From assembly GCA_944325035.1 (NCBI GenBank), contig CALUYM010000001.1, forward strand, positions 124,001-188,000: 64,000 bases of DNA. The letters are read 5' to 3'. A program made the translations under genes and the position numbers. The DNA is from an uncultured Anaeroplasmataceae bacterium (lineage in GTDB: Bacteria > Bacillota_I > Bacilli_A > Acholeplasmatales > Anaeroplasmataceae). The notes under the pieces are model-generated. The model was not told where the DNA came from. It saw nothing but the letters and a program-made list of their open reading frames with translations, and ran no database searches. How positions within the stretch are numbered: position 1 is the first letter of the stretch; every line of letters starts with the position of its first letter. This document shows, piece by piece, positions 28,505 through 51,059 of this stretch.

Positions 28505-28533
28505 TTGACATTAGAAATTCAACTAGATATAAT
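28505..28533 (+). promoter_or_regulatory. Consensus sigma-A promoter of mnmA
   Basis: TTGACA (28505-28510), exactly 17 bases, and TATAAT (28528-28533) make a full-consensus promoter 30 bases before the mnmA start. Confidence 0.85.
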
Positions 28534-28562
28534 TTTAAAAGCATTATGCAAGAGGTGATAAA

Positions 28563-29690: not shown

Positions 29691-29695
29691 CTATG

Positions 29696-29724
29696 AACTA
29701 GTGTGAAAACACTAGTTTTTGTTA
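29696..29724 (+). terminator. Terminator after mnmA
   Basis: AACTAGTGT (29696-29704) and ACACTAGTT (29709-29717) form a 9-bp stem with a GAAA tetraloop, then TTTGTT. Confidence 0.85.
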
Positions 29725-29750
29725 TTAAGGAATACGATTTATCATATATA
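29722..29750 (+). promoter_or_regulatory. Probable promoter of murG
   Basis: A perfect -10 TATAAT (29745-29750) follows a weak -35, TTATTA (29722-29727), by 17 bases, 14 bases before the GTG start of murG. Confidence 0.55.
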
Positions 29751-29764
29751 ATATTGGTGATAAA

Positions 29765-30709
29765 GTGAATATAATTTTAACAGGCGGCTTTAGTGGTGGT
29801 CATATCATACCACTTATAAGACTTGCTAAAAAAATGAAAGAACATCAATATTTATATTTAGGATTTGAAAACCACTTAGAAGAAAAACTAGCAAAAGAAT
29901 CAAATATTGAATTCTTTGGTCTAAAAAAATTTGACACTAAGTTTAAACGATATTTTTATGTAAAAAAATATTTTAATGAAATTGAGCAAAGGATAAAAAA
30001 ATTTAAACCACAATTAGTTATATCAACAGGTGGCTATCATTCATTTCCAATGATATACTATGCAAAAAAAAATAATATAAAATATATTTTAATCGAAGAG
30101 AATATGAAAATTGGATTATTAAATATGTTATTTAAGAAAAATGCATATAAATTTATTACTTCTTTTCCACTTTCGCTAGGTGAATTTGGGCCTAATCCTT
30201 CAATTTATTTCAATCCTGTAAAGCAATCTATTGAATATGATTTTTTATGTATAGGTGGTTCTTTAGGGAGTCATATAATAATTAAAGAAGCAATTAAATT
30301 ATCCAAAAAATATAAGGTGTTAGTTATAGCAGGGAGATATCAAGCGGAGTATTTAAAATATCAAACAAAGAATTTTAAAGTGTTAGGATTTGTTAATTTA
30401 TTAGATTATTATGGAATATCGAAATTAATTATTACTAGAAGTGGTAGTTCAACATTATTTGAATTAATTAAAGCTAATGCTTCTTTTGTAACTATTCCAG
30501 CATCAAAGACGAAACGTAATCATCAATTTTATAATGCTAAGTTTATAGAAAAAAATGGTCTTGGATTAATGTTAAATGAAAATCGTATTACCAAAAAAAG
30601 TCTAATTAAAGCTCTGAATTTTGATTTTACTAAAATTAAAGAAACGCAAAAAAATTTTATAGAATCATTTGAAGATAATTTCTATGAGGAAATTATACGT
30701 GGAATTTAG
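29765..30709 (+). CDS. murG: MurG, lipid II GlcNAc-transferase
   Basis: A 314-residue GT-B glycosyltransferase that adds GlcNAc to lipid I at the inner membrane face. The N-terminal glycine loop is LTGGFSGGHIIPL; STGGYHSFP is the second conserved block; IGGSLGSH opens the C-terminal nucleotide-binding domain; ITRSGSSTLFEL is the donor-binding motif, with NHQFYNA following. It is about 40 residues shorter than usual MurG and very rich in Lys, Ile and Asn. The start is GTG 29765 with GGTGATA upstream. murB follows, overlapping its end by about 11 bases. Confidence 0.9.
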   Translation: MNIILTGGFSGGHIIPLIRLAKKMKEHQYLYLGFENHLEEKLAKESNIEFFGLKKFDTKFKRYFYVKKYFNEIEQRIKKFKPQLVISTGGYHSFPMIYYAKKNNIKYILIEENMKIGLLNMLFKKNAYKFITSFPLSLGEFGPNPSIYFNPVKQSIEYDFLCIGGSLGSHIIIKEAIKLSKKYKVLVIAGRYQAEYLKYQTKNFKVLGFVNLLDYYGISKLIITRSGSSTLFELIKANASFVTIPASKTKRNHQFYNAKFIEKNGLGLMLNENRITKKSLIKALNFDFTKIKETQKNFIESFEDNFYEEIIRGI

Positions 30710-31571
30710 ACATTATATAAAAAATAATAAAATTGGTCGTATAATTGAAAATATTTCTTTTTCTGAGTTAAATACTATTGGACTTGGTGGAAATATTAGA
30801 TATGTAGTTTATCCTAAAAATTTTAGAAAGCTTAAAAAATTATTAAAAAAAATAAAAAAAGATAATAAATCTTATTACATATCAGGTTTTGGCTCGAATT
30901 TATATACTAAAAAATTTGATGGAGTTTTAATTAAACTAGATGATATTAAACGTAAATTTAAAATAAAAAAAGATATTCATCTATCTGCCAATTATTCACT
31001 TAGTCAAGCTTCTAGAAAATTGATAAAAGAAAATATTTCTAGTTTAATAAGTACAATTGGAATTCCAGGTAGTTTAGGTGGAGCAATATATATGAATGCC
31101 GGTTTCTCCAATTATAATGTTAGTGATCACCTAAAAAAAATTCGTATTTTAACACCAAATAACAAAGTCAAATGGATTAAGAAAAGTGGTTGTGAATTTA
31201 AATATCGCTATTCAAGTTTTATGAATAATAAAAGTATTATTTTAGAAGCTAAATTTTTTATAGTTAAAGATCTTAATATTCAAAGTAAGTGTAAAGAATT
31301 ACTGATAAAAAGATATAAAAGTCAACCTGTTGGAAAGAGCTTAGGGTCTATTTATAAAAATACTTCTCTATATTATGCTGGGGAAGTAATTGAGAGATTA
31401 GGATTTAAAGGTTTTACTCATAAAGGTATAAAAATAAGTGAAAAACATGCTAATATATGGATTAATCAAAATGGACATATTAATGATTTGTTAGAACTAT
31501 TATTTATAGTTGAGTTATCAGCTTTATTAAAATTAAATATCCGTTTAAAAAGAGAAATAATTGAATTTTAG
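30699..31571 (+). CDS. murB: UDP-N-acetylenolpyruvoylglucosamine reductase
   Basis: A 290-residue FAD enzyme that reduces UDP-GlcNAc-enolpyruvate to UDP-MurNAc. FAD-binding text is TIGLGGNIRYVVYP and YISGFGSNLYT; IPGSLGGAIYMNAG and YRYSSFM are the conserved central motifs; GKSLGSIYKN lies in the C-terminal substrate domain. Start chosen at GTG 30699, nine bases after GAGGA; two upstream in-frame ATGs lack such a site. It overlaps the murG end. A decayed second copy of its last 80 bases lies 327 bases downstream. Relatives often continue with ftsQ/divIB and ftsA, which are absent here. Confidence 0.93.
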   Translation: MEFRHYIKNNKIGRIIENISFSELNTIGLGGNIRYVVYPKNFRKLKKLLKKIKKDNKSYYISGFGSNLYTKKFDGVLIKLDDIKRKFKIKKDIHLSANYSLSQASRKLIKENISSLISTIGIPGSLGGAIYMNAGFSNYNVSDHLKKIRILTPNNKVKWIKKSGCEFKYRYSSFMNNKSIILEAKFFIVKDLNIQSKCKELLIKRYKSQPVGKSLGSIYKNTSLYYAGEVIERLGFKGFTHKGIKISEKHANIWINQNGHINDLLELLFIVELSALLKLNIRLKREIIEF

Positions 31572-33248: not shown

Positions 33249-33964
33249 TGGCGTTTGATTTTTTAGAAAGAGAATTAATGGTTCTTGGTGAAGAAGGAGT
33301 TAATAAGCTTGCTTCAAAACGTGTATTAGTATTTGGTTGTGGTGGAGTTGGTGGAGCTTGTATAGAAGCTCTAGCTAGAGCTGGAATTTTAAACATTGAT
33401 GTTGTTGATGGCGATGTTGTAAGCTTATCTAATAAAAATCGTCAAATTATAGCATTAGATTCAACTTTAGGAAAATCTAAAACAACGGTTATTAAAAACC
33501 GCCTTTTAGATATTAATAAAGATATTAATGTTTTTGAATATAATTTATTTTATATTGATGCAACATATCATTTAATCGATTTTACTAAATATGATTATGT
33601 CATTGATTGCATTGATACAGTAACTGCTAAATTGCATATTATTGAAGAATGTACTAGGTTAAATATCCCATTGATTTCGTCAACTGGAACTGGTAATAGA
33701 ATGGATCCTACTAAATTTAGAATAACTGATATATTTAATACTACATATGATCCACTTGCTAAAGTTTTACGCAGTGAATTAAAAAAACGTAATATAAAAA
33801 AATTAAGAGTTTTAGCATCAACAGAGCAGCCTATTAAAATTCCCGAGGAAAGAAAGATCAAAGATCCAATTTCTAAAAGGAATATTCCTGGTTCTATTTC
33901 ATTCGTTCCCCCAGTTGCAGGTTATATAATTGCCTCATTTGTAGTTAAAGAGTTATTAAAATAA
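33248..33964 (+). CDS. tcdA: tRNA threonylcarbamoyladenosine dehydratase (ThiF/E1-like)
   Basis: A 238-residue E1-like enzyme. The ATP-binding motif VLVFGCGGVGGACIEALAR lies at about residues 27-45; DGDVVSLSNKNRQ is the Arg-containing block that fixes the nucleotide; DCIDTVTAK is the next conserved stretch. TcdA dehydrates t6A to its cyclic form in tRNA. Start chosen at ATG 33248, sharing one base with the ftsZ stop. The C-terminal part (PGSISFVPPVAGYIIASFVV) matches the TcdA membrane-proximal ending, which favours TcdA over MoeB or ThiF. Confidence 0.88.
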   Translation: MAFDFLERELMVLGEEGVNKLASKRVLVFGCGGVGGACIEALARAGILNIDVVDGDVVSLSNKNRQIIALDSTLGKSKTTVIKNRLLDINKDINVFEYNLFYIDATYHLIDFTKYDYVIDCIDTVTAKLHIIEECTRLNIPLISSTGTGNRMDPTKFRITDIFNTTYDPLAKVLRSELKKRNIKKLRVLASTEQPIKIPEERKIKDPISKRNIPGSISFVPPVAGYIIASFVVKELLK

Positions 33965-33990
33965 AAATCGGAAAAATCCGATTTTTTTAT
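33963..33990 (+). terminator. Terminator after ftsZ-tcdA
   Basis: AAAAATCGGA (33963-33972) pairs with TCCGATTTTT (33977-33986) around a 4-base loop, T-rich tail. Confidence 0.8.
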
Positions 33991-34407: not shown

Positions 34408-34436
34408 TTGACATAAAATATTTTTTTATATATTCT
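34408..34436 (+). promoter_or_regulatory. Promoter of the giant surface-protein gene
   Basis: A consensus TTGACA (34408-34413) is followed after 17 bases by TATTCT (34431-34436). AAGGGAG (34451-34457) is the ribosome-binding site for ATG 34467. Confidence 0.65.
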
Positions 34437-34466: not shown

Positions 34467-37400
34467 ATGCTCAAAAATCTAAAAAAAATTTTCGATAAAA
34501 AAATAAAAAAAATATCCATAGAAAAAGATGAAATAAAAAAGGAATTAAGTACACAACAAAAAGATTGTGATAACATAGATAAGATTCAAGATTTAGAAAA
34601 CGAAATGAAAACAGATTCCAAGTTAAATGATCATAAAAAAGTTAAAAAGAAAAATAAGAAGAAATTAACACGTAAGCAAAAAATTATAAAACGTTCTTTG
34701 CTTTGTTCACTTGCCGTTTTATTATGTTTTGTAATTGGTTCAGTTTGTTTTTTATTTTTGGGTGGAAATGATGTTCCTGCCCAAGCTGGGGAAACTAACG
34801 CAACTACTACAATAAAACCTTTGCCTATTAATTCTAATCCTTCAAAAGAGACTGATTTAGATAATATTGCTTATTTAGCATATAAAATTCAAACTTCTAG
34901 AAATTTTAAGTCTGTGAGCAATGGACAAGCAACTTCCAAGGTAATGGGAATTCCTTATGTTCAAACGATTGTTGATTATCGTTCTGTTTCTGATGAATAT
35001 ATGTTTCAAAAGACAATTTCAACATCTTCGATGGTAAGTTTTGCTCTAGAAAAATTCTATTTTGATGATAAAATTATTAGACGTGAAGGTTCACCTAATG
35101 GTCAAACGGATGCAAATTGGGCTGAAACTCCCAAAGATGCAATTACTTATAAGTTAGCAGACCAGCTTTATGGTTGGACACCAAATCAAATATCGGCATA
35201 TATTTTATGTGAAGAATCTATTTTAACGACTGAACGCTTGGCAAATGGGGAAAATGGATTTTATGAAATTAAATTAGTTTTAGACCCATCAGTTGCCCCT
35301 TATAAATATCAACGACAAGTAAAAGAATTTGCTGGTAGTAATAGTTACCCTGGTTTCAGTAAAATTGAATTAACTTATAAATTTGATAGCCAATGGAATA
35401 TAATTTCAACTCATACAGAAGAAATTTATGGAATATCAATGTTTGGAATGAATTTAACAATTTCTACAGATATAAATGAAGAATTTACATATGAAGATGA
35501 AGTTGAAATTCCAGAAGTAGATTATTATGAAGCATATCGAAATATGCCAGCTATAGGAGAAGTAGATGATAAAATAATATCTGCACAAGAACTATTTTTA
35601 CAAGGCTTCTCTAACTTACTAAATGGAAACCTAGAAAAATATCAAATAGATTTAATTATAAACGAAAGGCGTTTTAATATTATTGCAAATATTGAAATGG
35701 CTTCTAATACTTACTTAATAAGTATAAATGACGAAATATTTATAAAAGCAGATTTAAATAATACGAATTCTGTATATATAAATTACAAAGATTTACACCT
35801 TAAATATGAACTAAGTGATAATGAAAAAATGATAAATCTCATTGGCATTATCTTAGATGGTATTAATATTTCAAACAATCAAAAAACAAGTATTAAATTG
35901 GATATAAACTCTATCATGCAGGCTTTACTTTCTGCACCAGTTGAAATTGATGATGTAAATAATACAGCTGTAATAAATACTATCCTGCCGCTAGGTATAA
36001 TTGACCTACCAATTCAATTTAGCTTTATTAAAAATACAGATACATATATTTTTAATTCTATTATTTCAGATGTAGAAATTGAAACAAATAAGATAAAATT
36101 GTCTGTTAATAATACAAGTCAAATTGTTTTATTCGAGGAAGCAAATCATTATCAAAATTTGGGATATTTAAGTTTTATTTTAGAAGACATAGCCAAACTT
36201 TTAAATGCTAAAGCTATTAGTTTTGAAGGTGATATTAAGATTCCATTAAATGAAAAGACAACTAATGTTAATTTAGATGGAATATACGACCCAATATCTA
36301 AGCGATTAAAAATAGCATTCACCTCTGATTATATGGAAGGGTTGAATTTTGATTTATATTATCAAGATGGATATATTTATTTAGTTAAAAATGAATTAAA
36401 TCTAAAATTTGAAATAAATCGCTTGAATGAAATAATTGAAATTATAAAGAATAATAAAAATTCAGAACAAGAACAAGCTAGTGAAGATTTGTTACTGATA
36501 TTATCAATACTTAAAGATATTAAACTAGATGAAACAATATCTTCTATAGTGATAACTGAAAATAGTTTAGATTTTACAGTTTATACGATTAATAGTGCAT
36601 ATAGCGCTTCTATATTTAATGAAGACAACAATCTAGTTTTAAATCTGATGGATTTAGTTAAATTAACTTTAACCCCAACTAATTCAAATGATTTTGCTAT
36701 TCCTGAGACTTCAACTGATGTAAGTGATCTAGTTGTTTTAATTAAGTATTTCTTAGCAAACAAAGATGCAAAAGCATATGACATTAACTTAAATTTTGAT
36801 TTAAATTATAATGATATGATTATGACTTTTAGTGGCCATGCATATTTTGATATTAACTTAAATTTAAAATTTACAGGATATGTTGAAGCTGAAGGTGTAA
36901 AGATTCCGTTAGACATAATTTTAAAAGATTCAAAGCTTTATGTAACAGTTCTAGAAAAATCATTTATGTTTAAAATAAATGAAATATTTAATTACTTACC
37001 ACAAATTAATATTGATCTTGTTACATCAGTTTTAGCATTACTTGTTGTAAGTCCAAGTATTTTAAATAATACATTAACATTATCTTTAAACGATATTAAT
37101 TGGAATAATATTAATATTTCAAATATAAATATGGAAATTAATCCTACTGATTTAAAGGTGATTGATGGTATTCCATCTGATTATTATGAATTAAACGATT
37201 TAAAAAACTTAGTAAACATTGTTCAAGAAATTATCGAAATTTTTAAAAATGAAAAACTTAGCATTAATTTCAAGACATTAATTAACTATAAAAATAACAA
37301 TTATCCAATCGAAATTAATGGTATTTACGATCAAACTAAAAAATCATTTAGTTTAGAAGTTAAAATTGGTATAAATGATACAACTTTAATAATTAATTTA

Positions 37401-40400
37401 TCATATAGTGATAAACTATATTTTTCATTTAAAAATATAAATATAGCTCTAACAAGTGAAGAACTAAAAGAAATCTCAAATCGCTATAATTTGAATAAAG
37501 AGTTATACTCGCAGTTTGACCAAATTATTTCTATTATGTCAAATATGATATTAACTATTTATCAAAATGGAATAGATGCAAAATTAGACTTATCTTCTAT
37601 TATTTCCGCAATTGGAATTATGGCCGTTAATTTAAATGTTGAAGATGGACACCTTTATCTTAGTGCATCTAATATAGAGGTAAATGGCATTATTTTAACT
37701 GATATAGGGGCTAGCTTAGCATCTACAAATTTAAATGTAAATATTCCTGATAAAGATTACTTATCATATGACCAAATTCGTCCTATTTTAGATATCATCG
37801 ATAATAGCGTAAATATTATTACTTCAAAACAAGTAATGGTTGAACTAGACACTATAATAGTTATTAACAATACTACACTATTGTTACAAATTAGAGGAAT
37901 AATCGATTTTAAAGATGGATTAAAGACACATTTAAATGTAAAAGTAATTGCTCAATCTAGTGAAATAAATCTAAATATATCATATGATGGTAAGTATTTC
38001 TATTTTAGCTATGAAAATATCAATCTAAAGCTTACATTGTTAGAATTAAAAGAAATAGTTACTAGGTATAAAAAATCATCTTTAATAAATCAAGGAATAT
38101 ACAATATATTAGAAATGCTAGACAGAATTCAAATCGATTCAATTAATAATCGAATTGATATTATTGTAAACCTAGCAAAGATAACTGATTTAATTGAAGA
38201 AATAGTACTTAGTGTTAATAGCGATAATGGTAATTTATTAATTAATATTAGTGATTTAGAAGTTTCTAATGTTATAATTAAAAATATTTTCGTTAAACTT
38301 GGAAAAACAAATTTAAATGTCGAAGTTGAAGATAAGAAATATTTAACATATAATGATATCTTACCGATATTAGAAATAGCAGATACAATTTTACAACTAA
38401 TAAATAATCAACAAGTGTCTTTAGAATTTAAATCAAAAATTTTAATTAATGAAGAAATTGCTGAAATAAGTGTTAGTGGAGTATTAGACTTTAGCACTGA
38501 CTATAAACTAAATTTAGATATAAATATGTTATATAATGATTCAAATATCTCATTTAATTTAATGTATGTTGATAATTATTTTTATTTAACAAGTAATTAT
38601 ATAAATATTAAATTAAATTTCGATGAAATTAATCAAATTATATCTAAAGTTAGTGCTAAAACGGTAGAAGCGAATAATATATCTTTAGTTATTGAAATAT
38701 TAAAGACTATAAAAATTAATTTAGAATCAGGAGTTTCTATAAGTCTTAATTTAGCTTTAATTTCAAGTCTTTTAGATATAATTACTATTACGATACATGA
38801 AACAGCAAATGGTGTAGCTTTAGAAATAGCTAATTTATCGATAGGTAAGATAGAATTAAAAGATTTAGATTTCTTTATTGAAAAGTCTAACCAGGAAATT
38901 AAAATAAAAGATGTAAATTATTTAACATATAATGAAATCTTGCCAATGATTGATATAATTAATTATGGAATTCAACTTTTTGAAAACGGTAAAGTATGGA
39001 TTGATTTGAATACTGATATTTGTCTAGACGATTTTAAGGCTAGTATCAATATTAACGGTTTAATTGAATTTAAAGATTCTTTACAATTTAATCTAAATAT
39101 ATCTATTTTAACAAATAATAAATCAACAACTGTTAGATTAGATTATGATGGTACTTATTTCTATTTAACAATGAATGATTTGAAAGTTAAATTAAAACTT
39201 GCTGAGATTAAAGAAATTGTAAGTCATTATATATCGGAGTCATATTTTATAAACGAAAACATAGATATAATTTTAATGCTTTTAAATTCATTAAATATAA
39301 CTATTCAAGATGGATTTTTAAGCATCTTAATCAATCTTAAAAATATTACTGATTTAATAAATCAACTTCAATTTAAGCTTAATTTAACCGAAACAGGATT
39401 GAATGTTGAAATTTCAGATTTGAACATATATAACTTACAAATTTTACCTATTTCAATTAAAGTTAAAGAAACAAATTTAAATGTTTATATTAAAGAAGAT
39501 ACATATTTGAATTTTGAAGATATACTTCCTATTTTAGATATTATTGATCATGTTTTAAACTTTGTAAAAAATGAAAGTACTTATATTTCTTTAGATACAG
39601 TCATTAAATATAATAATTTGAGTATTAATCTTAGCATAAATGGAAGTATTAATTTCCAAAATAATTTCATGTTTGACTTTGATATAAAAGCGTATTTAAT
39701 GGAAGAAGTTTTAAATATAAACTTATTATATGATGGATTATATTTATACATAAGTTATGAAAAACTTAACTTTAAATTAACTATACCAGAGATTAATAAT
39801 ATGATAAGCGAGTTTGTACAAATTCCTAATTTAGCTTCGTCTTTTGATTTAAATACATTAATCACTTTGTTAGAAAGTATCAAATTGACTAGTGAACAAA
39901 ATATTGTAACAATTTTATTTGATTTAAGTGCTATTACAACAAAGTTAAATAAATTAAAGTTAAGTATTCAAAAGATAGATAATATTTTAGAGCTAAACAT
40001 ATTTGACTTTACGATTGACAATTTATCAATTACAGATACTAAGATCAGGCTAAGTGATACATCTGAAACGGTTAAGATTCCTGATAAAGACTATCTTACA
40101 TATAACGACTTAAAACCAGTTATTAGTCTTGCTAAAGAAGTTCTTTCTTATTTAAAAAGCCAAAAAGTCGCCATAGATTTATCATTTAAGCTTAATACTT
40201 TCAACGAAAGTTTTGATATTAGAGTTTTAGGAATTGTAGATTTTAGTGCAGACATTTGTCTTGATTTTGATATTGAAGTATTATATAAAGATACAAAGTT
40301 TATTGCATCAATAAGCTATGAAAATGAACACTTCTATTTTAAACTGAATCAAATTCAAGTATGTCTAACTTTTGATGAAATTATTGAGATTATTAATCAC

Positions 40401-43400
40401 TATAGGAGTCAAAGCTATAATATAGATGATTTAACAATACTAAGCATTTTAAAAACAATTGATTTAAAAGTGCAAAATAATGTTATAAATATAAGTATTA
40501 ATTTAGGGCAATTGACCGATTTAATAGACGAGATTACATTTAATATAGAAGAAGTTAATGGTAAGATTAATGTTACAACTAATAACTTGAAGATTTTTAA
40601 CATTGAATTAACAAATTTAAATATAGATATTAAAAAGACAAGTGAAGAAATTACAATTAATCCAAATGATAAGTATCTAATTTATGATGATATTATTGTT
40701 TTATTAGACATTGTCGACTATATAGTCGATGTGATTAAAACAAATAAAACATATTTAAATATTAATTCAACCATTCAAGTTAATGATAAAAAAGTTGATT
40801 TTAATTTAAATGGTTCAATAGATTTCACAAATCAATTAAAACTTTCAGTTTTGGTAAATTTGAAATATGAAGGTAAATCGATTGATATTTCTATTTATTA
40901 TGCTGATGGATTCTTATATTTAAATTATGAGAAATTGAGTATTAAATTGACAATTAATGAAATAAATGAATTATTGGGGAATCAAAATAATTTATTTAAA
41001 TCAAATAACACTTTGGCCTTGATAAAAGAAATTTTAGAAAGCTTGATTTTAAATCGTATTGATAATGTTATCAAGATATCATTAGATTTGATTTCAATGT
41101 CTAGTTTAATAAGTGAATTAAATTTAGAACTAGCTTTATCCGAAGATGGTTTAAATGTAGATATATCTACATTAGAATTTGATGGAATAAGTTTAACTAA
41201 CACAACGTTGAAATTTAATGCTAACGCAGAAGAAATAATAATCCCTGACAATAACTATTTAACTTATGATGATTTATTACCAATTCTTGATGTTGTAAAA
41301 ACATTTGTTAGTACGATTAAATCGGGACAAATTGAAATTGATTTAACATTTATTTTAAATTTATATGATGAAGATGTTGAAGTTAATATCAATGGTATCA
41401 TTGATTTTAGAAATAATCTAAAATTAGCTTTGGATATAAAATTGAATATTGATGAAGGATTAATTAATGCTAAATTAGTATTTGATGGCGTGTATTTCTA
41501 TCTGTCATTTAACAATATTAACGTTAAATTAAGTTATTCAGAAATTAAGAATATTCTTGGTCATTATCAATTGGAATTAACAAATAATATTAATTTTGAC
41601 TTAGGTGTTATATTAAGCTTATTGAAAACTTTAGAACTAAGTGTAGAAAATAAAATAATTAATATTAATTTAGACTTAAATCAAATTAGTGCGTCATTAG
41701 GAAATTTAATTATTTCCTTGGAAGTGATCAATGAAAAATTAGTTTTTAAGGCAGCTGATTTGATCTTTAATAAGTTCCATTTTAGTCAATTAGAATTAAA
41801 TATAAATAAATCTTTAAATGAAGTTCAAATAAAAGATGTTAACTATTTAACTTATAATGATATTTTAATATTATTAGATATGGTCGATTATTTTATCGCT
41901 ACAGTAAATGAAGGTAAAGTTAATATTAACTTTGAAACTGAAATTTTTATTAATCAAAAAAGATTTAAATTAGATTTAAATGCAATACTTAATTTCCAAG
42001 AAGCTATTATATTTAATTCATGTATAAAGATTTCTTATGGTAATATTAATATCAATTTAAATATTTCATATGATCAAACATATTTTTATGTAAGTATAGC
42101 AGATATTAATCTAAAACTAACATTAAGTGAACTTAATGAAATTATTCATCGATATACGACTTATAATTTAGAAATAGGAAATACTTCGGTTTCACTTAAA
42201 CAATTAATTTCTGTTATTTCAACGATTAATTTAGAACGTATTTTAAATGGTTTTTATATTAGTTTTGATTTATCTTATATTACTGAATTAGTAAAAGATT
42301 ATAATATAACATTAAGTTACACAGATAAACTTGAAATCATATTAGGAACTATAAACATTAATAGTCTTTTAATTACTAGTCGAAAAATTACAGCTCAAAA
42401 AACAGAACAAATTGTAGAAATCCCTGACAATAGATATTTAACTTATACAGATGTTGTAGAAACTTTAGATATTATTGATTATGTTTTAATGGCTTTAAAT
42501 GATGGTTCTATAGCGTTTGATTTTAATACAAACATATATCTTCAGGAAGTTGAATTGAATGTATCTATAAGTGGAAATATAGAAATAAAAAATAGTTTAA
42601 TGTTTAGTGTAAATATAAGTACTATTTACAAGAATCAACTATTTGATTTAGTAATATCATATGATGGATTATATTTCTATTTAAACTATGAACAATTAAA
42701 TTTTAAATTAACTATGGCAGAAATTAATCAATTAATAAATAACTTTACTGAGTTACCAAGTAATAGTTTGAATATTGATTTAGTAAAAATACTAGAGATT
42801 TTTAAAAACTTAAAAATTGTTAGTCAGGATAATTCAATTATCATCATTGTTAATTTAGGTTCAATTACTAATTTACTTGATAAAGTTAAATTAACTTTTG
42901 TTAAATCAACTAAAGGAATAGATATAAGCATATCAAATTTAGAAATTAAAGATATTAAGCTTAATAATATTAAACTTTCTATTTACAATACTAACGAATT
43001 AATTGTTATTCCTACTCAAGATTACTTAACATATGATTCACTACTGCCAATTGTTGATATTATAAAAGAATTAATAGATACAATTAAGGCACGTCAAATT
43101 GAGTTTAATTTGGCATTTAATACAATATATAATAATGAAATTATAAAAATATATTTAAATGGAATAATTGATTTTAGAAATCAATTAGAATTTGCTTTAG
43201 ATATAAATATAATTTTAAGAGATAAATTAATAAACTTTGATATTATTTATGATAGTAATTATTTCTATTTTATGTTCAATGATATAAATATTAAATTGAA
43301 TTATTTTGAAATTATAGAAATATTGGAGCGTTATTCTATATCATTAAATGGATCTAATAATTTTGATTTAAACATAATAGTAAATTTGTTGAAGTCGTTT

Positions 43401-46400
43401 AATGTTAGAGTTGATGATCAAGTTGTAAGTATGAATGTTAATTTAAGCGGTGTTACGAATTTAATTAAAAACATATCCTTGTCATTTGAATTAATCAATT
43501 TTAAATTAGTTGGTGGAATTTGTGATTTAAATATTAATGATATTAAGATAAATAAAATTGAATTTAATGTTGATAAAACTGTAAGTGTTGTTGAAATTAA
43601 AGATTGTGATTATTTAACATATACTGATATCTTAAATGTTTTAGATATTGTGGATTTTACAAGTGATATTATTAAAAATGGAATTATAGAAGTTAAATTT
43701 AATACAAAAATTCTATTTAAAAATCAAATTATCAGTTTAGATGTAGCTGCAATTATAGACATTAGAAATCAAATTATATTTAATGTCGATATGAAAATTT
43801 TATATTTAAACTCTGTTATTGATATTGACTTAGCTTATGATGGCACACATGTATATATAAATATTGGTAATATTCATACAAAGTTAACATGGGTGGAAGT
43901 TAAAGAAATAATTTCTAACTATCAAAGTGAATCGCTTAATCTAAATGATTCTTCACTAGCTTTAGAAAAAGTTTTAAGTATTATCTATTCAATGAAAATA
44001 AAAAGAGTATCAAATGGTTTTAGTTTAAGCTGTGACTTAAATTCAATTATTAGTTCAATAAATACATATACAATTGAAATTGTTTATACTGATTATATAA
44101 GTATTAAGTTAGATGATTTAAATCTAAGTAGTGTAAATATTACTAATTCTAATGTAGTATTAAACAAAACAGTTGAACCAGTTAGAATTAGGGATGAAGC
44201 ATATTTGTCATTTGAACAGTTAAAACCATTTATAGAATTGCCAGCATATTTTATAAACTTAATTAAGAATGGACAAATTCAAATTAACTTAAATACAACT
44301 ATTATATATCAAAACGAAGAGGTTAATTTAAATCTTATTGGTGTAATTAATTTTGATAAAAAATTACTAATAGATCTAAATGTTAGTTTAGGATATAGAG
44401 GAGAAAATATTTCATTAAACATCTTATATGATGGAACTTATTTCTACTTAAATTATGCAAATCTTCATATTAAACTCACAATTGATGAGATTATGACAAT
44501 TATTCAAAGATATCAGGCAGTTAAATTTGATAATGTTGCAGCTGGAAATGTAGGAATTAGTGCAAATCAAATTATAGAATTCTTTAAAAATATTCAGCTT
44601 GTATCAAACGGTGACGTAACAAGAATTATCTTTGATTTTAGAATGTTTACAAATCTAATTGAAACTGTAACGTTGGATATTAAATATATGGATTCTAATT
44701 TGATTCTAACTATAAGTGATATTAATGCTTTAGACGTTAAATTATCAAATATAAATGTTGAATTATCTATAAATAGCAAACAAATTGAAATTCCTGATAA
44801 TAACTATATTGATTATGTAGGAATTGAAATGATTTTATCAGTGATTGATGAAGTTATAGAAATGTATGAAAATAAAACTTTCCATGTTGAACTAGCATTT
44901 GATACTAAATTAAATGGATTAAATATAGGAACTAATTTCAGTTTAGATATTAATCTAAATACATTTGATATAAACGGTGAAATCGCATTAGAAATTGTAA
45001 AGACAATTCATAAAGTTAAATTTGCTTATAGTAAGGAATATATTTATTTGTCATATGGTGAAATTGCTATTAAACTTCATGTTTCCGAAATAGAACAGTT
45101 AGTAAATTTCATTAAGCAAAAATGGAGTTTAACTACTTCTCAAGAATATAGTTTGAAAGAAACTAGTGCAACTTTAAGTCAAATTTTAGAAGTTATTGAA
45201 TCGTTAAAAATCAGTCACAATAATAATGCATTAGATGTGGTTTTATCTTTATCATCAGTTGTTCAAGGGTTAAGCGACTTTAATGTGATTATTAAAGTTA
45301 TTAATGAAAACCTAGTGATTTTATCACCAAACATTACTTATTCTGGATTTACCTTAACTGATATTAGTGCGTATTTAAGTGGTAATGTATCAAGTTTTGA
45401 AATCCCTAATATGAATTATTTGAATTTTGAACAAGTAAAAGAAATAATAAGTTATTCACGCGATATTTTTGATTTATTTAATGAAAAAAGATATAATTTT
45501 AGTTTCACAACCGAAATAATTAATAATGGCAGTGCTCGTTTTAAAGCTGATGCCAAAGCTCTATTAGAAATCAATCAAGATAATAGCTTTAATCTACAAA
45601 TATCTGTTGACATAATTGCATTAACAGATAAAGATAAAAACTATACATTGGATATTATTATTAAAGATGGATATGCTTATTTAAATATTAAGCTTGCAAC
45701 TCGCGATGATGTGAATCATGATTTCTTAAAAATAACATGTAGCATGAATGATTTACTAGAGATTATAGCTACAATTACTTCAAATTTAGGAATTGAAGTT
45801 CCACTACTTGATCAATTCATAACTAAAACTTATAATTTTGCATTATTTAGAACAAGTAATTATTCAATTATTGACAATATTTCTGCGATTGTCTTTAGTG
45901 ATTATGTAAAGTCTATTGCTCTAATTAATAATGCATTGCGTCTAGTTTTAGATGGAAATAAGATTTTTGGAGCGAGTGATGATTTAGAAATATTTATAGG
46001 TAAATCAGCTAACTCACAAAAAGTTGATTATTTTGAAATATACAATATTTATTCATATAATACAGTTTCAAGAGTAGAAAAGTTTAATATTACTCTTATC
46101 TTAACATATGAAGATTTCATAATCGAAACTCCAGATACAAGTGAATACATTGATATATCTACGATTAATGATTTACTTCAAACAGCATTTAATACATCAA
46201 CGCTAACTGATTTTAATATTACCGGAAGTGCTAATGTAAAAATGACTGTGATTGGAATCAATATTAATATGAACATAAATTATCAATTTTTATTAAAACT
46301 TGATGAGAATAATATTCCAACAATTATGATTAAATTTACAAATATTCCAGTAATTCCTGGAGTAAATAATGATGTTCCTTATAAATTTGGTGATGTTGAT

Positions 46401-48338
46401 GGCGGCTCTAATCGTGAATTAACTATTTATATTCAGAATGCTTTAACATACATTTATCGCCATGAATATATAGCAACATTAACAGGTTCAAAATCATATG
46501 AAAAGAAGCTTATGACTTCAAATGATGCATTTGTAGGTAATATCATGGATTATCTATTGAAATATGGATTTGGATTTAGTGATTCTATTATGAATGCAAT
46601 TTATGAAGGCTTGAAAATTGATCCAAATCATGTGATGGACTTAGCTAAATTAGTCAACAATTATTCAAAAAATGAAGATGATACTTATAATTTAAGTATT
46701 TCGTTGTACCAATTAACTGGAAATTCACAATTGGGAGATATTAGCTTAACACTATCTACAAGTGAAGAACAAGGAATGACAATGATTACTAATGTTTCTT
46801 TAGGCTTAGATATTAATGTATCAGTTTTATCATTAACTATTAGCACAAGTGATACTAAGCTTAATAATGTAGGTCAATCTGTTGATTTAACTAATTTATA
46901 TACATATATAAATGAATATAAATATAATATTGATGAAGCATGGGAAGCACGTGATGGAAATTGGACGAAAGCATCGGAAATACTTTTTAAATTGACTATT
47001 GTTAAAAATGATGGTAGTGAAAACCTAGTTAAAGAGTTGCGTCAAAATGAAAATATCGAGTTACCAAAATTTGATACATATAAATTAATAAACGGTGTAT
47101 ATTATCAATTTGCTGGATGGTATACTACTGAAGATTTTGTATCTGGTAGTGAATTTAATGAAGAGCTAATGCCAAGATATGATATAACTGTTTATGCAAA
47201 GTGGATTTTAGCTGATACTGGTACTATTTACTTTGAAACAGAGTTTGGGAAAAAGCCGGAACCTATATATCAAATAGTAGGAACTGAGCTTACTTTACCA
47301 AGTATGGAAATTTACTCTGACGGGGACATAACATATCGTTTTGTCGGATGGAAATGCAATGGTGAATTATTTAACTTATCAACAATGCCAAAAGGTGAAT
47401 TATTATTAGTAGCTATTTGGGAAGTTGTTAAAACTTATGTGATAGTTGATGATGATTACATCGAATTTATTCCTAATGATGAAATATTTATGGAAGGTGA
47501 ATGGATTAATGCTAGCCATGATGCAAGTTATTATGAGATATACCGAAATACTACAGGAAAAGATTTAGCTAAAATGATTAATGACACGCTTATTTTTGAT
47601 GAAGATTTATTAGCGTATGTATTTAATGTTAAATTATATCATCTAAATCGGATGAATGATTTATTTAAAGTAATCTATAATGTTAATGAAAAATTTAGTC
47701 AAAATGAAAAAATTGTTGGTCATGCTTATAAAAAAGGAACAGCCGCATTAAGTTCTAATATTCCTGATTATATGTATGACTCATATGAAGTAAATGCGTG
47801 GTTTTCAGATAGTTCATTAAGTAATATCGTTGATGTAAACTACATTGAAAATGATATAATTTTATATCCATATTATTCTACTAAAGCTGAGTTTTTCAAT
47901 TATAATCAAAATGTAATTACAGGTATAACTAATTCATTTACAACTATAATTTTACCGATATATAATCAAGAATTTATAATAGTTGATACCGTTGGAACTA
48001 GCGCTTTTCTTGGAAATGGAGTAATTGAAACTGTTATTATGTCGAAATTTATTACTACATTACAACAAGATGCGTTTAAGAATACAACAAAATTAGTGAA
48101 TGTATATTTATCTGATACTATGACTGCTAATACAGTTGCTACTGATGCATTCTATATGGCTAATTCTAGTAGAGCTAATGAAATTAATTTCTATGGAAAT
48201 GGCTCAATTGATTTTAGTAAATTACTTGCGTATAAGGGTGGATTATTTAACCAAAAGAAGTATTACTATAATTCTTTAAATAAAACATTAACTAAATATG
48301 ATTTAGTAAGTATTATCAATAAATATATCGGAATTTAG
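34467..48338 (+). CDS. Giant membrane-anchored repeat protein, 4623 residues
   Basis: One uninterrupted 13.9-kb frame. Residues 1-76 are cytoplasmic, very rich in Lys; about 77-98 form one membrane helix; the rest would be outside. Residues about 115-345 form a non-repeated beta-rich domain. From about 345 to 3890 come tandem modules, fourteen of them clear with a period of 193-204 residues. Two InlB-B-like repeats follow (FAGWYTT...TVYAKW near 4210-4250; FVGWKC...LLLVAIW near 4290-4320). The end is a BspA-like leucine-rich segment (about 4500-4620). No sorting motif LPxTG is present; anchoring is by the N-terminal helix. I do not recognise the module family. A surface, adhesive or lipid-handling role is speculation. 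A MacB-type ABC transporter follows. Confidence 0.85.
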   Translation: MLKNLKKIFDKKIKKISIEKDEIKKELSTQQKDCDNIDKIQDLENEMKTDSKLNDHKKVKKKNKKKLTRKQKIIKRSLLCSLAVLLCFVIGSVCFLFLGGNDVPAQAGETNATTTIKPLPINSNPSKETDLDNIAYLAYKIQTSRNFKSVSNGQATSKVMGIPYVQTIVDYRSVSDEYMFQKTISTSSMVSFALEKFYFDDKIIRREGSPNGQTDANWAETPKDAITYKLADQLYGWTPNQISAYILCEESILTTERLANGENGFYEIKLVLDPSVAPYKYQRQVKEFAGSNSYPGFSKIELTYKFDSQWNIISTHTEEIYGISMFGMNLTISTDINEEFTYEDEVEIPEVDYYEAYRNMPAIGEVDDKIISAQELFLQGFSNLLNGNLEKYQIDLIINERRFNIIANIEMASNTYLISINDEIFIKADLNNTNSVYINYKDLHLKYELSDNEKMINLIGIILDGINISNNQKTSIKLDINSIMQALLSAPVEIDDVNNTAVINTILPLGIIDLPIQFSFIKNTDTYIFNSIISDVEIETNKIKLSVNNTSQIVLFEEANHYQNLGYLSFILEDIAKLLNAKAISFEGDIKIPLNEKTTNVNLDGIYDPISKRLKIAFTSDYMEGLNFDLYYQDGYIYLVKNELNLKFEINRLNEIIEIIKNNKNSEQEQASEDLLLILSILKDIKLDETISSIVITENSLDFTVYTINSAYSASIFNEDNNLVLNLMDLVKLTLTPTNSNDFAIPETSTDVSDLVVLIKYFLANKDAKAYDINLNFDLNYNDMIMTFSGHAYFDINLNLKFTGYVEAEGVKIPLDIILKDSKLYVTVLEKSFMFKINEIFNYLPQINIDLVTSVLALLVVSPSILNNTLTLSLNDINWNNINISNINMEINPTDLKVIDGIPSDYYELNDLKNLVNIVQEIIEIFKNEKLSINFKTLINYKNNNYPIEINGIYDQTKKSFSLEVKIGINDTTLIINLSYSDKLYFSFKNINIALTSEELKEISNRYNLNKELYSQFDQIISIMSNMILTIYQNGIDAKLDLSSIISAIGIMAVNLNVEDGHLYLSASNIEVNGIILTDIGASLASTNLNVNIPDKDYLSYDQIRPILDIIDNSVNIITSKQVMVELDTIIVINNTTLLLQIRGIIDFKDGLKTHLNVKVIAQSSEINLNISYDGKYFYFSYENINLKLTLLELKEIVTRYKKSSLINQGIYNILEMLDRIQIDSINNRIDIIVNLAKITDLIEEIVLSVNSDNGNLLINISDLEVSNVIIKNIFVKLGKTNLNVEVEDKKYLTYNDILPILEIADTILQLINNQQVSLEFKSKILINEEIAEISVSGVLDFSTDYKLNLDINMLYNDSNISFNLMYVDNYFYLTSNYINIKLNFDEINQIISKVSAKTVEANNISLVIEILKTIKINLESGVSISLNLALISSLLDIITITIHETANGVALEIANLSIGKIELKDLDFFIEKSNQEIKIKDVNYLTYNEILPMIDIINYGIQLFENGKVWIDLNTDICLDDFKASININGLIEFKDSLQFNLNISILTNNKSTTVRLDYDGTYFYLTMNDLKVKLKLAEIKEIVSHYISESYFINENIDIILMLLNSLNITIQDGFLSILINLKNITDLINQLQFKLNLTETGLNVEISDLNIYNLQILPISIKVKETNLNVYIKEDTYLNFEDILPILDIIDHVLNFVKNESTYISLDTVIKYNNLSINLSINGSINFQNNFMFDFDIKAYLMEEVLNINLLYDGLYLYISYEKLNFKLTIPEINNMISEFVQIPNLASSFDLNTLITLLESIKLTSEQNIVTILFDLSAITTKLNKLKLSIQKIDNILELNIFDFTIDNLSITDTKIRLSDTSETVKIPDKDYLTYNDLKPVISLAKEVLSYLKSQKVAIDLSFKLNTFNESFDIRVLGIVDFSADICLDFDIEVLYKDTKFIASISYENEHFYFKLNQIQVCLTFDEIIEIINHYRSQSYNIDDLTILSILKTIDLKVQNNVINISINLGQLTDLIDEITFNIEEVNGKINVTTNNLKIFNIELTNLNIDIKKTSEEITINPNDKYLIYDDIIVLLDIVDYIVDVIKTNKTYLNINSTIQVNDKKVDFNLNGSIDFTNQLKLSVLVNLKYEGKSIDISIYYADGFLYLNYEKLSIKLTINEINELLGNQNNLFKSNNTLALIKEILESLILNRIDNVIKISLDLISMSSLISELNLELALSEDGLNVDISTLEFDGISLTNTTLKFNANAEEIIIPDNNYLTYDDLLPILDVVKTFVSTIKSGQIEIDLTFILNLYDEDVEVNINGIIDFRNNLKLALDIKLNIDEGLINAKLVFDGVYFYLSFNNINVKLSYSEIKNILGHYQLELTNNINFDLGVILSLLKTLELSVENKIININLDLNQISASLGNLIISLEVINEKLVFKAADLIFNKFHFSQLELNINKSLNEVQIKDVNYLTYNDILILLDMVDYFIATVNEGKVNINFETEIFINQKRFKLDLNAILNFQEAIIFNSCIKISYGNININLNISYDQTYFYVSIADINLKLTLSELNEIIHRYTTYNLEIGNTSVSLKQLISVISTINLERILNGFYISFDLSYITELVKDYNITLSYTDKLEIILGTININSLLITSRKITAQKTEQIVEIPDNRYLTYTDVVETLDIIDYVLMALNDGSIAFDFNTNIYLQEVELNVSISGNIEIKNSLMFSVNISTIYKNQLFDLVISYDGLYFYLNYEQLNFKLTMAEINQLINNFTELPSNSLNIDLVKILEIFKNLKIVSQDNSIIIIVNLGSITNLLDKVKLTFVKSTKGIDISISNLEIKDIKLNNIKLSIYNTNELIVIPTQDYLTYDSLLPIVDIIKELIDTIKARQIEFNLAFNTIYNNEIIKIYLNGIIDFRNQLEFALDINIILRDKLINFDIIYDSNYFYFMFNDINIKLNYFEIIEILERYSISLNGSNNFDLNIIVNLLKSFNVRVDDQVVSMNVNLSGVTNLIKNISLSFELINFKLVGGICDLNINDIKINKIEFNVDKTVSVVEIKDCDYLTYTDILNVLDIVDFTSDIIKNGIIEVKFNTKILFKNQIISLDVAAIIDIRNQIIFNVDMKILYLNSVIDIDLAYDGTHVYINIGNIHTKLTWVEVKEIISNYQSESLNLNDSSLALEKVLSIIYSMKIKRVSNGFSLSCDLNSIISSINTYTIEIVYTDYISIKLDDLNLSSVNITNSNVVLNKTVEPVRIRDEAYLSFEQLKPFIELPAYFINLIKNGQIQINLNTTIIYQNEEVNLNLIGVINFDKKLLIDLNVSLGYRGENISLNILYDGTYFYLNYANLHIKLTIDEIMTIIQRYQAVKFDNVAAGNVGISANQIIEFFKNIQLVSNGDVTRIIFDFRMFTNLIETVTLDIKYMDSNLILTISDINALDVKLSNINVELSINSKQIEIPDNNYIDYVGIEMILSVIDEVIEMYENKTFHVELAFDTKLNGLNIGTNFSLDINLNTFDINGEIALEIVKTIHKVKFAYSKEYIYLSYGEIAIKLHVSEIEQLVNFIKQKWSLTTSQEYSLKETSATLSQILEVIESLKISHNNNALDVVLSLSSVVQGLSDFNVIIKVINENLVILSPNITYSGFTLTDISAYLSGNVSSFEIPNMNYLNFEQVKEIISYSRDIFDLFNEKRYNFSFTTEIINNGSARFKADAKALLEINQDNSFNLQISVDIIALTDKDKNYTLDIIIKDGYAYLNIKLATRDDVNHDFLKITCSMNDLLEIIATITSNLGIEVPLLDQFITKTYNFALFRTSNYSIIDNISAIVFSDYVKSIALINNALRLVLDGNKIFGASDDLEIFIGKSANSQKVDYFEIYNIYSYNTVSRVEKFNITLILTYEDFIIETPDTSEYIDISTINDLLQTAFNTSTLTDFNITGSANVKMTVIGININMNINYQFLLKLDENNIPTIMIKFTNIPVIPGVNNDVPYKFGDVDGGSNRELTIYIQNALTYIYRHEYIATLTGSKSYEKKLMTSNDAFVGNIMDYLLKYGFGFSDSIMNAIYEGLKIDPNHVMDLAKLVNNYSKNEDDTYNLSISLYQLTGNSQLGDISLTLSTSEEQGMTMITNVSLGLDINVSVLSLTISTSDTKLNNVGQSVDLTNLYTYINEYKYNIDEAWEARDGNWTKASEILFKLTIVKNDGSENLVKELRQNENIELPKFDTYKLINGVYYQFAGWYTTEDFVSGSEFNEELMPRYDITVYAKWILADTGTIYFETEFGKKPEPIYQIVGTELTLPSMEIYSDGDITYRFVGWKCNGELFNLSTMPKGELLLVAIWEVVKTYVIVDDDYIEFIPNDEIFMEGEWINASHDASYYEIYRNTTGKDLAKMINDTLIFDEDLLAYVFNVKLYHLNRMNDLFKVIYNVNEKFSQNEKIVGHAYKKGTAALSSNIPDYMYDSYEVNAWFSDSSLSNIVDVNYIENDIILYPYYSTKAEFFNYNQNVITGITNSFTTIILPIYNQEFIIVDTVGTSAFLGNGVIETVIMSKFITTLQQDAFKNTTKLVNVYLSDTMTANTVATDAFYMANSSRANEINFYGNGSIDFSKLLAYKGGLFNQKKYYYNSLNKTLTKYDLVSIINKYIGI
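37182..46030 (+). repeat. Tandem modules of about 194 residues inside the giant gene
   Basis: The anchor Tyr codon of the motif xxYLTYxDILPILDII recurs at 37182, 37758, 38340, 38919, 39504, 40092, 40674, 41256, 41844, 42435, 43023, 43611, 44202, 44805 and 45417. Spacings are 192, 194, 193, 195, 196, 194, 194, 196, 197, 196, 196, 197, 201 and 204 residues. Each module has a helix (YLTY to about +30), beta strands ending near GIIDF, a pair around SYDGxYFYLxYENINIKLT, a second helix (EIxEIIxRY) and more strands ending IPD. DNA identity between copies is low, so the repeats are old or fast-evolving. Two or three further degenerate modules precede 37182. Confidence 0.88.
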
Positions 48339-48376
48339 AAAGGTATGTCGCAATTTTATTGTGACATCCTTTTTAT
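48339..48376 (+). terminator. Terminator after the giant gene
   Basis: AAAGGTATGTCGCA (48339-48352) pairs, with one bulge, to TGTGACATCCTTTT (48360-48373), followed by a T-rich tail. Confidence 0.65.
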
Positions 48377-48461
48377 TTAAAAAAATTAAATTTATTTTTG
48401 GAAAGTCTAGAATATATTAAAAAAAAAGCCTATAATAAAGATGTAGAAGAAGGTGAATTGT

Positions 48462-49163
48462 ATGGCATTAATCGAAGTTAGAAATATATCAAGGATATAT
48501 ACGATGGGAGAAAATAAAATTCAAGCTTTAGATAATATTAGTTTTGAAGTTGAAAAAGGAATGTTTGCAGTTGTTTTAGGACCATCTGGAGCTGGGAAAA
48601 CAACGCTTTTAAATTTGATTGGTGGCATGGACCAAGCAACTTCTGGAGAACTGATTGTAGATGGTAAAGATGTTACTAAATTTAATCGAAAAGAATTGAC
48701 TGATTATAGAAGAAAGAATATTGGATTTGTCTTCCAGTTCTACAACTTAATGCCAAATTTAACAGCTTTAGAAAATGTTGAATTGAGTGTTGAAATGTGT
48801 AAGGGAGCCTTAGAACCGGAAAAAGTATTAAGTGATTGTGGATTAGAAGGAAGAATGAATAATTTTCCATCACAATTATCGGGTGGAGAACAACAAAGAG
48901 TCTCTATTGCAAGGGCTTTAGCAAAAAATCCAACATTATTATTATGTGATGAACCAACGGGAGCTTTAGATTATCAGACTGGTAAAAGTATATTAAAATT
49001 ACTGTTTGACATGTGTCAAAAAGAGCATAAAACTGTTATAGTTGTTACGCATAATCAAGCTTTAAAATATATGGCAAATAAAGTTATATATATCAAAAAT
49101 GGAAAGGTGGACCATGAAATAATAAACGACAATCCTAAACCAATTGAGGAAATAGAGTGGTAA
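48462..49163 (+). CDS. ABC transporter ATPase, MacB/LolD type
   Basis: A 233-residue ATPase with Walker [11 protein letters not shown]-loop [16 protein letters not shown], signature LSGGEQQR, Walker [12 protein letters not shown] and H-loop VVTHNQ. The PTGALD form and the insertion-free length are typical of ATPases that pair with FtsX-like permeases (MacB, LolD, bacteriocin or peptide systems). Start at ATG 48462, with AAGGTG upstream; a GTG at 48453 is less likely. The partner permease follows at once. Position after the giant gene may be chance, since a terminator separates them. Confidence 0.9.
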
Positions 49164-49166
49164 TAT

Positions 49167-51059
49167 ATGAAAGCTTGTAATAAAACAATTTTAAGAGGTT
49201 TTAAAAAGAATATTAGTCGTTTAATTTCAATAACCATAATTATATTTTTAGGAATAGCATTTGTAGAAGGTCTTGGAACATTAGCACCAACTATTGAACG
49301 TTCGTTTTCAAACGTGTTAAATGAGCAAAATGCATTTGATTTAGACATTAAAGCTACGGATAAAACAGGAATTAGTGATGAGTTTATTCAAAGCTTACAA
49401 TTATTAGATGGAGTAAAAGATGTAGAAGCATTTACAGTAATTGAGTATGATGAAGATGAGAGTAATATTTTAGGTAATATTTTACCAGAAAATACTCGAG
49501 CTTATTTTCTACCAGAATCAGGATTTAAAGTGAATGAATTAGAAATCATAGAAGGTAGAATGCCTGAAAATGGAAATGAAATTGTTGTAGAACGTTCAAG
49601 TGAATATATAAAAGAGGTAAAAGTTGGTGATAAAGTAGTTTTTAATATTACATATTTAGAAAAAACTATTGAGTTAGAGGTAGTTGGTATTGTTGGTAAT
49701 CCATCAATATTTGATACAACAGGAGAACCATTATTAACTGATCAAGATGTTTTTTTAGAAAGTATTTATTATTTACATAGTGATTTTGTTACTGATAATT
49801 TTGGTTCTTTAGCGCCAATTATAAAAACATTACTTGTTCCCACAGATGTATATTTAACTTTTAATGATACACAAGGATTGGATCGATTTTCAGGTAACTA
49901 TCTTGAGAAAGTGAATAAGCACAAAGAAGAAATAGAAAATTTGGCTAAAAGTATTGAAGAACAAGGTCCAATTAAGGCCTTAACTTTAGAACAAACTAAA
50001 AGTTATATTTTTTTGTCAGAATATTGTGATAAGGTACAAATTATTGCATTAATTTTTCCTCTATTCTTTATTTTAGTAACATCACTTGTTGTTCTTACGA
50101 CAATGAGTCGAATGATTGAAGAGGAAAGAGCTATGATTGCTTGCCAAAAAAGTATTGGTGTAAGTGATATGAAAATATTGTCTAAATATATAATTTTTAG
50201 TATGGTAGCTTTATTAGTAGGTTCTTTTAGTGGTATGGCTGTTGGTATGTATTTGATGCCTGCTGCTATATTTCCAGCCTTTACAATTAGCTTTTATGTA
50301 CCACCCATGTCTGCCTATGTTGAACTTACTTATGGACTAGTGTCAATGCTGTTTATGTTAATCGCTACTTTCTTTTTGACCATCTATGTCGTCAGACAAG
50401 ATTTAAAATTACAACCAGCTCAATTATTATTGCCTAAGGCACCTAAAGCTGGTAAAAAGATTTTTTTAGAATATATTCCATTTATTTGGAAACGATTATC
50501 ATTTAAATATAAATCATCAATCCGTAATATTTTTAGATATAAAAAACATTTATTTATGACAGTTATATCTATTAGTGGTTCAACAGCTTTAGTATTTGCA
50601 GGATTTGCTTTAATGGCGATTAGTCAAGATAAGACAACGGAGCACTTTGAAAGTATCGGTAATACTTTACTTCCAATTTCATTTGTAATAATGATTTTTG
50701 CAATACTATTATCAATATTTGTTATTTATAACTTAACTAATATGAACATTCAAGAGCGTCAACGTGAAATAGCCACATTATCTGTTCTTGGTTATCATGA
50801 TTTTGAAGTAGCTACATATATTTTTAGAGAGATTATGACAATGGCTATTTTTGGAATTGTTATTGGAATACCACTTGGAGTTTTATTGGTTTGGGGTGTA
50901 TTTGAATATATAGATTTTGGTAAAATATCATCAGTATCATGGTATTATTATATTGCGACTATTTTACTAATAATAGTTTTTGTAATTATTGTAGATTTAA
51001 TGTTTTATCGGAAAATTAAAAAAATAGATATGACATCATCTTTAAAAAGTGTAGATTAA
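49167..51059 (+). CDS. FtsX-like ABC permease
   Basis: A 630-residue permease. An N-terminal membrane helix (about 18-38) is followed by an extracytoplasmic domain of about 230 residues, then three helices in the first FtsX domain (MIEEERAMIACQKSIGVS is the coupling block), a linker with KLQPAQLLLPKAPKAG, and a second set (NIQERQREIATLSVLGYH is its coupling block). The second extracytoplasmic loop is nearly missing, so it is shorter than many Clostridia-type permeases with two large loops. With the ATPase it would work mechanically rather than as a simple channel, as MacB and LolCDE do. Confidence 0.87.
   Translation: MKACNKTILRGFKKNISRLISITIIIFLGIAFVEGLGTLAPTIERSFSNVLNEQNAFDLDIKATDKTGISDEFIQSLQLLDGVKDVEAFTVIEYDEDESNILGNILPENTRAYFLPESGFKVNELEIIEGRMPENGNEIVVERSSEYIKEVKVGDKVVFNITYLEKTIELEVVGIVGNPSIFDTTGEPLLTDQDVFLESIYYLHSDFVTDNFGSLAPIIKTLLVPTDVYLTFNDTQGLDRFSGNYLEKVNKHKEEIENLAKSIEEQGPIKALTLEQTKSYIFLSEYCDKVQIIALIFPLFFILVTSLVVLTTMSRMIEEERAMIACQKSIGVSDMKILSKYIIFSMVALLVGSFSGMAVGMYLMPAAIFPAFTISFYVPPMSAYVELTYGLVSMLFMLIATFFLTIYVVRQDLKLQPAQLLLPKAPKAGKKIFLEYIPFIWKRLSFKYKSSIRNIFRYKKHLFMTVISISGSTALVFAGFALMAISQDKTTEHFESIGNTLLPISFVIMIFAILLSIFVIYNLTNMNIQERQREIATLSVLGYHDFEVATYIFREIMTMAIFGIVIGIPLGVLLVWGVFEYIDFGKISSVSWYYYIATILLIIVFVIIVDLMFYRKIKKIDMTSSLKSVD

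Follow-up and report, generated by a model that had tools for sequence, protein, structure and literature searches.

The window analysed here is a stretch of 64,000 nucleotides from an uncultured Anaeroplasmataceae bacterium whose genome is assembled as 1.55 Mb in 10 contigs. It contains a giant gene (Table 1) whose 13.9-kb frame is, as the original prediction held, uninterrupted, and whose product begins with the lysine-rich head and single membrane helix described there, the latter marked by one strong hydropathy peak. A conserved N-terminal domain (hereafter N-domain) directly behind the helix and a distal tip with Flg_new and weak LRR_5 similarity had been missed. The gene is probably transcribed as a single-gene unit, judging from the terminator-like hairpin on its 5′ side and the hairpin and T-run on its 3′ side; matches like the promoter-like site between the upstream hairpin and the start codon are no commoner than in shuffled sequences. 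The ATPase and permease genes downstream were considered as a Lol-like partner and rejected: the likely terminator intervenes, such a pair is not beside the giant genes in the relatives' loci examined, and its homologues in congeners are located elsewhere.

Table 1. Features of the giant gene and its flanks, in window coordinates.
Feature	Position	Strand	Basis or remark
Terminator-like hairpin 3′ of upstream thiF-type gene	33963..33986	+	10-pair stem followed by T-rich tail
Promoter-like site, TTGACA-17-TATTCT, upstream of giant gene	34408..34436	+	consensus match alone
Giant gene	34467..48338	+	4623 aa, ATG start, zero internal stops
Lys-rich head, presumably cytoplasmic (aa 1–71)	34467..34679	+	sequence
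Single transmembrane helix (aa 72–101)	34680..34769	+	hydropathy
Conserved N-terminal domain (aa ~105–350), predicted LolA-like fold, motif YGWxPxQxxxYI	34779..35516	+	
Module 1 (aa 360–558)	35544..36140	+	alignment with relatives, first-module profile, AF2 model
Modules 2–3 (aa 559–905; module 3 short)	36141..37181	+	profile searches
Modules 4–17 (aa 906–3650), 14 regular, 192–204 aa	37182..45416	+	profiles; AF2 for aa 1098–1678
Modules 18–19 (aa 3651–4140), divergent, with insertions	45417..46886	+	weak by relatives-only profile
Flg_new / InlB B-repeat-like domain (PF09479), distal tip	46992..47201	+	above Pfam cut-off
BspA-type LRR_5-like stretch (PF13306), distal tip	47982..48161	+	below Pfam cut-off in window
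Likely terminator, hairpin and T-run directly 3′ of giant gene stop	48342..48374	+	read directly from sequence
ABC ATPase (LolD/MacB type) and 630-aa FtsX-type permease	48453..51059	+	downstream of giant gene

Nineteen modules of ~194 aa each were counted, exceeding the minimum of 14 proposed originally, and 17 of them are backed by profiles built without the window protein. An iterated profile recovers contiguous modules over aa 559–4140, to which alignment with relatives adds aa 360–558. This detection is not circular, because a profile built from the relatives' modules alone recovers the array: it matches modules 2–17 (16 modules, aa 559–3650) with E values from 5e-25 to 6e-10 and scores of 25–75 bits, compared with a maximum of 4.5 bits over 50 shuffles. 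A first-module profile likewise built without the window protein matches aa 365–560 at E 5e-16, and the window's modules match those of the relatives in profile-profile comparison with 99.5% probability over 184 columns. Modules are spaced by 189–206 aa, with the exception of module 3 (~160 aa). Identity among the regular modules is mostly 22–42%, with a weak three-module periodicity, and long DNA repeats are absent from the gene; the array is therefore old and no assembly artefact. The alternation of helices with amphipathic strands noted earlier was borne out, in that the odd/even difference in hydropathy averaged 4.0 over the 11 strands vs. 1.66 ± 0.32 in shuffles (0/5000).

Searches against Pfam, NCBIfam and PDB sequences revealed no family covering either the modules or the N-domain, in agreement with the original view of the module as unrecognised; their sole identification was the Flg_new domain of the C-terminal tail. 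When 80 modules and 18 N-domains were scanned singly, only scattered, chance-like matches appeared; those to Lipocalin (E 0.003) and similar Pfam families involved one module each, look like chance, and were dismissed. LppX_LprAFG (PF07161) remained below its curated cut-off, with a best match to 1 of the 80 modules at E 0.02; because this profile matched no control genome either, its failure to appear in the phylum sample carries little weight. The LolA family (PF03548) gave no profile match, and comparison with an E. coli LolA profile yielded nothing. The DUF6612 lipoproteins (PF20316), which occur in the same class, show a 65-column resemblance around a Y..D/G.YFY strand pair, but they are single-domain proteins, reach only 11.6% probability in hhalign, exceed the family cut-off in 5 of 149 genomes, and have no match in the window's own genome. 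We consequently found no convincing sequence kinship to LolA, LppX, DUF6612, or PDB chains.

Structures were predicted with AF2 for three tandem modules (aa 1098–1678; alignment of 20 rows; pLDDT 83.6, pTM 0.64) and for the N-domain with module 1 (aa 104–558; 15 rows; pLDDT 81.8, pTM 0.67), the first alignment being built from non-overlapping triples, as overlapping tandem triples misregister. In each modelled module a helix is followed by six strands, a pair of helices, and a further five strands, and some modules have a short strand in addition. DSSP gives the N-domain 11 strands as well, behind an N-terminal helix, and places one more helix between strands 8 and 9. By these assignments the models have the topology of the LolA-fold superfamily (CATH 2.50.20), namely a helix, 11 strands and, in the modules, a two-helix lid. 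Foldseek searches of the PDB with both models returned LolA, LprG, RseB, and relatives at probabilities of 0.97–1.00 (LprG 3mha, LolA 2w7q, LprF 4qa8, and RseB at 0.99–1.00), with E values of ~1e-4 for LprG and LolA; the models are multi-domain and the matches are not assigned to single domains. Target-length TM scores for the two models were 0.53 and 0.50 against LprG (3mha) and 0.53 and 0.45 against LolA (2w7q), a range that is moderate, and the models do not closely reproduce any solved structure. Matches to DNA sliding clamps and AttH-like proteins (rmsd >20, TM <0.25) were discarded. Members of the LolA superfamily are 11-stranded half-barrels with a lid of short helices, have very low mutual sequence similarity, and hold their ligands in a hydrophobic cavity (PMC6363788, PMC8496864). 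From the models, we are confident that modules and N-domain adopt a LolA-like fold. The earlier guess of a LolA/LppX-like protein thus stands at the level of fold, in both models and by both AF2 and Foldseek, and falls at the level of sequence. Profile-level comparison of N-domain and module shows no similarity, so the fold is the sole ground for their common descent.

These models also bear on the extended groove suggested originally, in which adjacent clams would join into one hydrophobic conduit for sliding lipids, as has been proposed for bridge-like lipid-transfer proteins. Such a conduit would be the most remarkable outcome, and it is in keeping with the regular head-to-tail modules and their short linkers, with the strongly amphipathic strands, and with a pTM of 0.64 that suggests a partly defined relative placement of the three modules. 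However, the prediction makes each module a self-contained clam of 11 strands with a separate lid, pLDDT drops to ~60 at one of the two module boundaries in the three-module model, and the cell itself lacks a second membrane to which lipid could be delivered. We regard a continuous conduit as very unlikely.

Among 60 close genomes, 24 encode modules and 29 the N-domain and/or first module, while the N-domain was recovered from 61 of 395 genomes of the class; the family spans several families of the class, in a fused or a two-gene form. Fused homologues occur across the Anaeroplasmataceae and nearby families and range between ~1360 and 2840 aa, which leaves the window protein, at 4623 aa, as the longest seen. 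At the complete or near-complete loci counted, the fused relatives have their anchor at the N-terminus, the N-domain of the window protein, and 5–12 modules. Four relatives carry nearly identical two-module duplications (unit of 325–374 aa, 97–99% DNA identity). In numerous other genomes of the class, the N-domain forms a gene of its own, of ~300 aa: in most of the non-Anaeroplasmataceae carriers read, this gene A is followed by a gene B of ~950 aa that contains the modules, and in some genomes A or B has a lipoprotein-type signal. In a tree of the N-domain, most split forms separate from most fused ones, and the window's branch, which is long and weakly placed, falls next to the other Anaeroplasmataceae. 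The N-domain was not found in two congeneric genomes, of which one is 99% complete, and no empty site could be read there, since homologues of the flanking genes sit on different contigs. A viral origin was rejected, as the protein had no phage match and only low-probability matches in a viral fold library. Two further observations were made at these loci. One N-domain copy (G025:C6:13337-14143) has three in-frame stops and is a decayed gene, and one giant homologue adjoins a phosphate-binding-type lipoprotein that apparently comprises two near-identical halves (L055 10821-12776).

The distal tip lends some support to the stiff adhesive stalk suggested originally. In the window, the Flg_new domain scores 36.9 bits in the whole protein and 47.5 bits in the tail alone (cut-off 27) and is confined to the tip, while the LRR_5 stretch scores 19.5 bits against a cut-off of 27.7, which is exceeded at four relatives' loci (L089, L091, L095, and L098). 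Most Anaeroplasmataceae giants scanned end in one or both of these elements. The main rival to the reading that we favour below is a stalk in which the LolA-like modules are ligand-free structural beads raising an adhesin-like tip above the surface. Besides the tips, the spread of sizes from ~1360 to 4623 aa, the alteration of length by tandem duplications, and a strong divergence among modules like that of surface stalks all speak for it. Nevertheless, in two rumen-type Acholeplasmatales giants (L099 and L101) and in the stand-alone gene B proteins the tip is absent and the last module is the end of the protein, and for this reason the tip is best read as an addition in the Anaeroplasmataceae lineage and not as the ancestral function. 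A pure stalk would also leave the two-gene form, the conserved N-domain, and the regulator link described below unexplained, and surface-stalk modules are usually Ig-like, whereas those predicted here are lidded half-barrels. We consider the adhesive stalk possible but rather doubtful.

Small genomes of the class conserve the unannotated A-B pair together with an XRE-type regulator in divergent orientation (L104-L118). This regulator, which has a hydrophobic C-terminal part, adjoins the split genes on the side of A in most of 13 loci read and forms a cluster spanning 11 loci. It could be taken as the receiver in an RseB-like envelope sensor, in which LolA-like proteins outside the cytoplasm would sense lipids or lipoproteins by binding and relay this to the membrane-bound regulator; RseB and MucB rank among the best fold matches, and the regulator's conserved place beside A and B fits. 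Yet none of the fused giants examined has it as a neighbour, other operons adjoin it elsewhere, and 19 modules seem extravagant for sensing, all of which makes a sensor improbable. Full-length homologues of the regulator in five relatives (L128-L132) are divergent to operons with acyltransferase and glycosyltransferase genes, probably for (glyco)lipid synthesis. The homologue in the window's genome adjoins a transporter-type operon and neither the giant gene nor lipid genes; XRE paralogues differ in their targets.

The distribution of FabF was compared with that of the N-domain. A bona fide FabF is encoded by 1 of 60 carriers vs. 112 of 335 other genomes (395 genomes; Fisher p = 1e-8) and, in the window's family, by 1 of 26 carriers vs. 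3 of 9 others (p = 0.04; own genome left out), statistics that ignore phylogeny. The window's genome is an exception, since it carries a FASII operon (acpP, accB, accC, accD, accA, fabH, fabK, fabD, fabG, fabF, and fabZ; names assigned by eye except for fabF), and so are two further genomes (G009 and G221). Seven genomes without a bona fide FabF (G006, G012, G016, G022, G025, G028, and G034) contain frames of ~700–820 aa with two ketosynthase-like domains. Elsewhere in the window (3042-4644) lies a gene for a DegV/FakB-type fatty-acid-binding protein, and a solitary 92-aa piece that follows nearby resembles the middle of YloV/FakA.

No association was found with MurG in the window's family (both MurG and giant in 9 genomes, giant only in 17, MurG only in 6, neither in 3; p = 0.13), and because the giant protein is present independently of MurG, a role in the cell wall is unlikely. 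This result also weakens the notion of a protein-binding scaffold, in which the modules would activate extracellular enzymes by binding them or would tether other proteins at the surface. GerS of Clostridioides difficile provides its precedent, as a LolA-fold lipoprotein of a monoderm that works by binding the amidase CwlD (PMC8496864). However, a cell-wall enzyme as partner is made unlikely by the MurG result, and no enzyme neighbour is conserved in the relatives' giant or split A-B loci examined, which leaves a GerS-like scaffold with very little probability. Separately, the window contains FtsW/RodA-like, MurG-like, and MurB-like genes (27294-31571) in what is a Mollicute-related genome, so that this genus may still make peptidoglycan; 40-60% of Anaeroplasmataceae genomes are reported to retain some peptidoglycan genes (PMC10868615).

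Taken together, the fold and family of the giant protein are well supported; its function we infer. The reading that we favour, at a probability of about 0.42, is a membrane-tethered chain of clams that bind hydrophobic ligands and serve in the capture or handling of external lipids, and although lipid capture ranks first among the single mechanisms, it is somewhat less likely than not, with the adhesive stalk next. A lipid role is favoured because of the LolA-like fold, the rarity of FabF in carriers, and the XRE homologues beside acyltransferase/glycosyltransferase operons; the window genome's own FASII operon and the position of its XRE homologue away from lipid genes count against it. In addition, the LolA fold also serves protein-binding roles, as in RseB, which binds RseA. 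The protein would be an extracytoplasmic, tethered chain of ~20 LolA-like β-clams (one N-domain and 19 modules), each with a lidded pocket that may hold a hydrophobic ligand such as a fatty acid, lysolipid, sterol, or lipoprotein acyl chain. As a capture and holding array, it would concentrate gut lipids near the membrane and pass them to it, while in the Anaeroplasmataceae the Flg_new and BspA-like LRR tip probably aids attachment where such lipids occur. Module number would set reach and capacity, changing in relatives through two-module duplication; when extended, such a chain is estimated to be up to roughly 80–100 nm long. A more specific version, in which the ~20 clams capture lipids or sterols of the host or its diet and relay them from clam to clam down to the membrane, while two-module duplications tune the length of the chain, is unlikely.

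Known LolA-fold systems differ from the window protein in several respects. LprG and LprF (PF07161; PDB 3mha, 4zra, 4qa8), with LolA the best fold matches of our models, are also extracytoplasmic, membrane-anchored LolA-like clams of ~190 aa, but LprG is one clam that binds triacylated lipids and works with the MFS partner Rv1410, whereas the window protein has ~20, and no conserved transporter partner was found. LolA and LolB (PF03548; PDB 2w7q, 8v1k) share the topology of N-terminal helix, 11-stranded half-barrel, and helical lid; they are soluble or outer-membrane single-domain chaperones of diderms that act with LolCDE, while the window protein is a tethered array at one membrane. We take the window's lineage to be Mollicute-related and bounded by a single membrane, which leaves no LolCDE-type work between two membranes. 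RseB and MucB share the LolA-like domain (fold matches 3m4w, 2p4b, and 6in9) and a possible regulatory link, although they combine one such domain with another domain and RseB binds RseA, whereas the giant gene lacks an anti-sigma partner. GerS is likewise a membrane-anchored monoderm lipoprotein of LolA-like fold, but it is a single domain, spore-specific, and an activator of CwlD (PMC8496864). No tandem array of LolA folds was found in the papers searched.

If the chain does bind lipids, it would give a testable account of the way in which gut bacteria with little cell wall and no fatty-acid synthesis supply their membranes with lipid, and it would show a single-domain carrier turned into a giant surface array through gene fusion and module duplication. 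Even as a mere stalk, it would add a new type of structural module to those of giant bacterial surface proteins, and a widespread, previously unannotated gene pair is now described.
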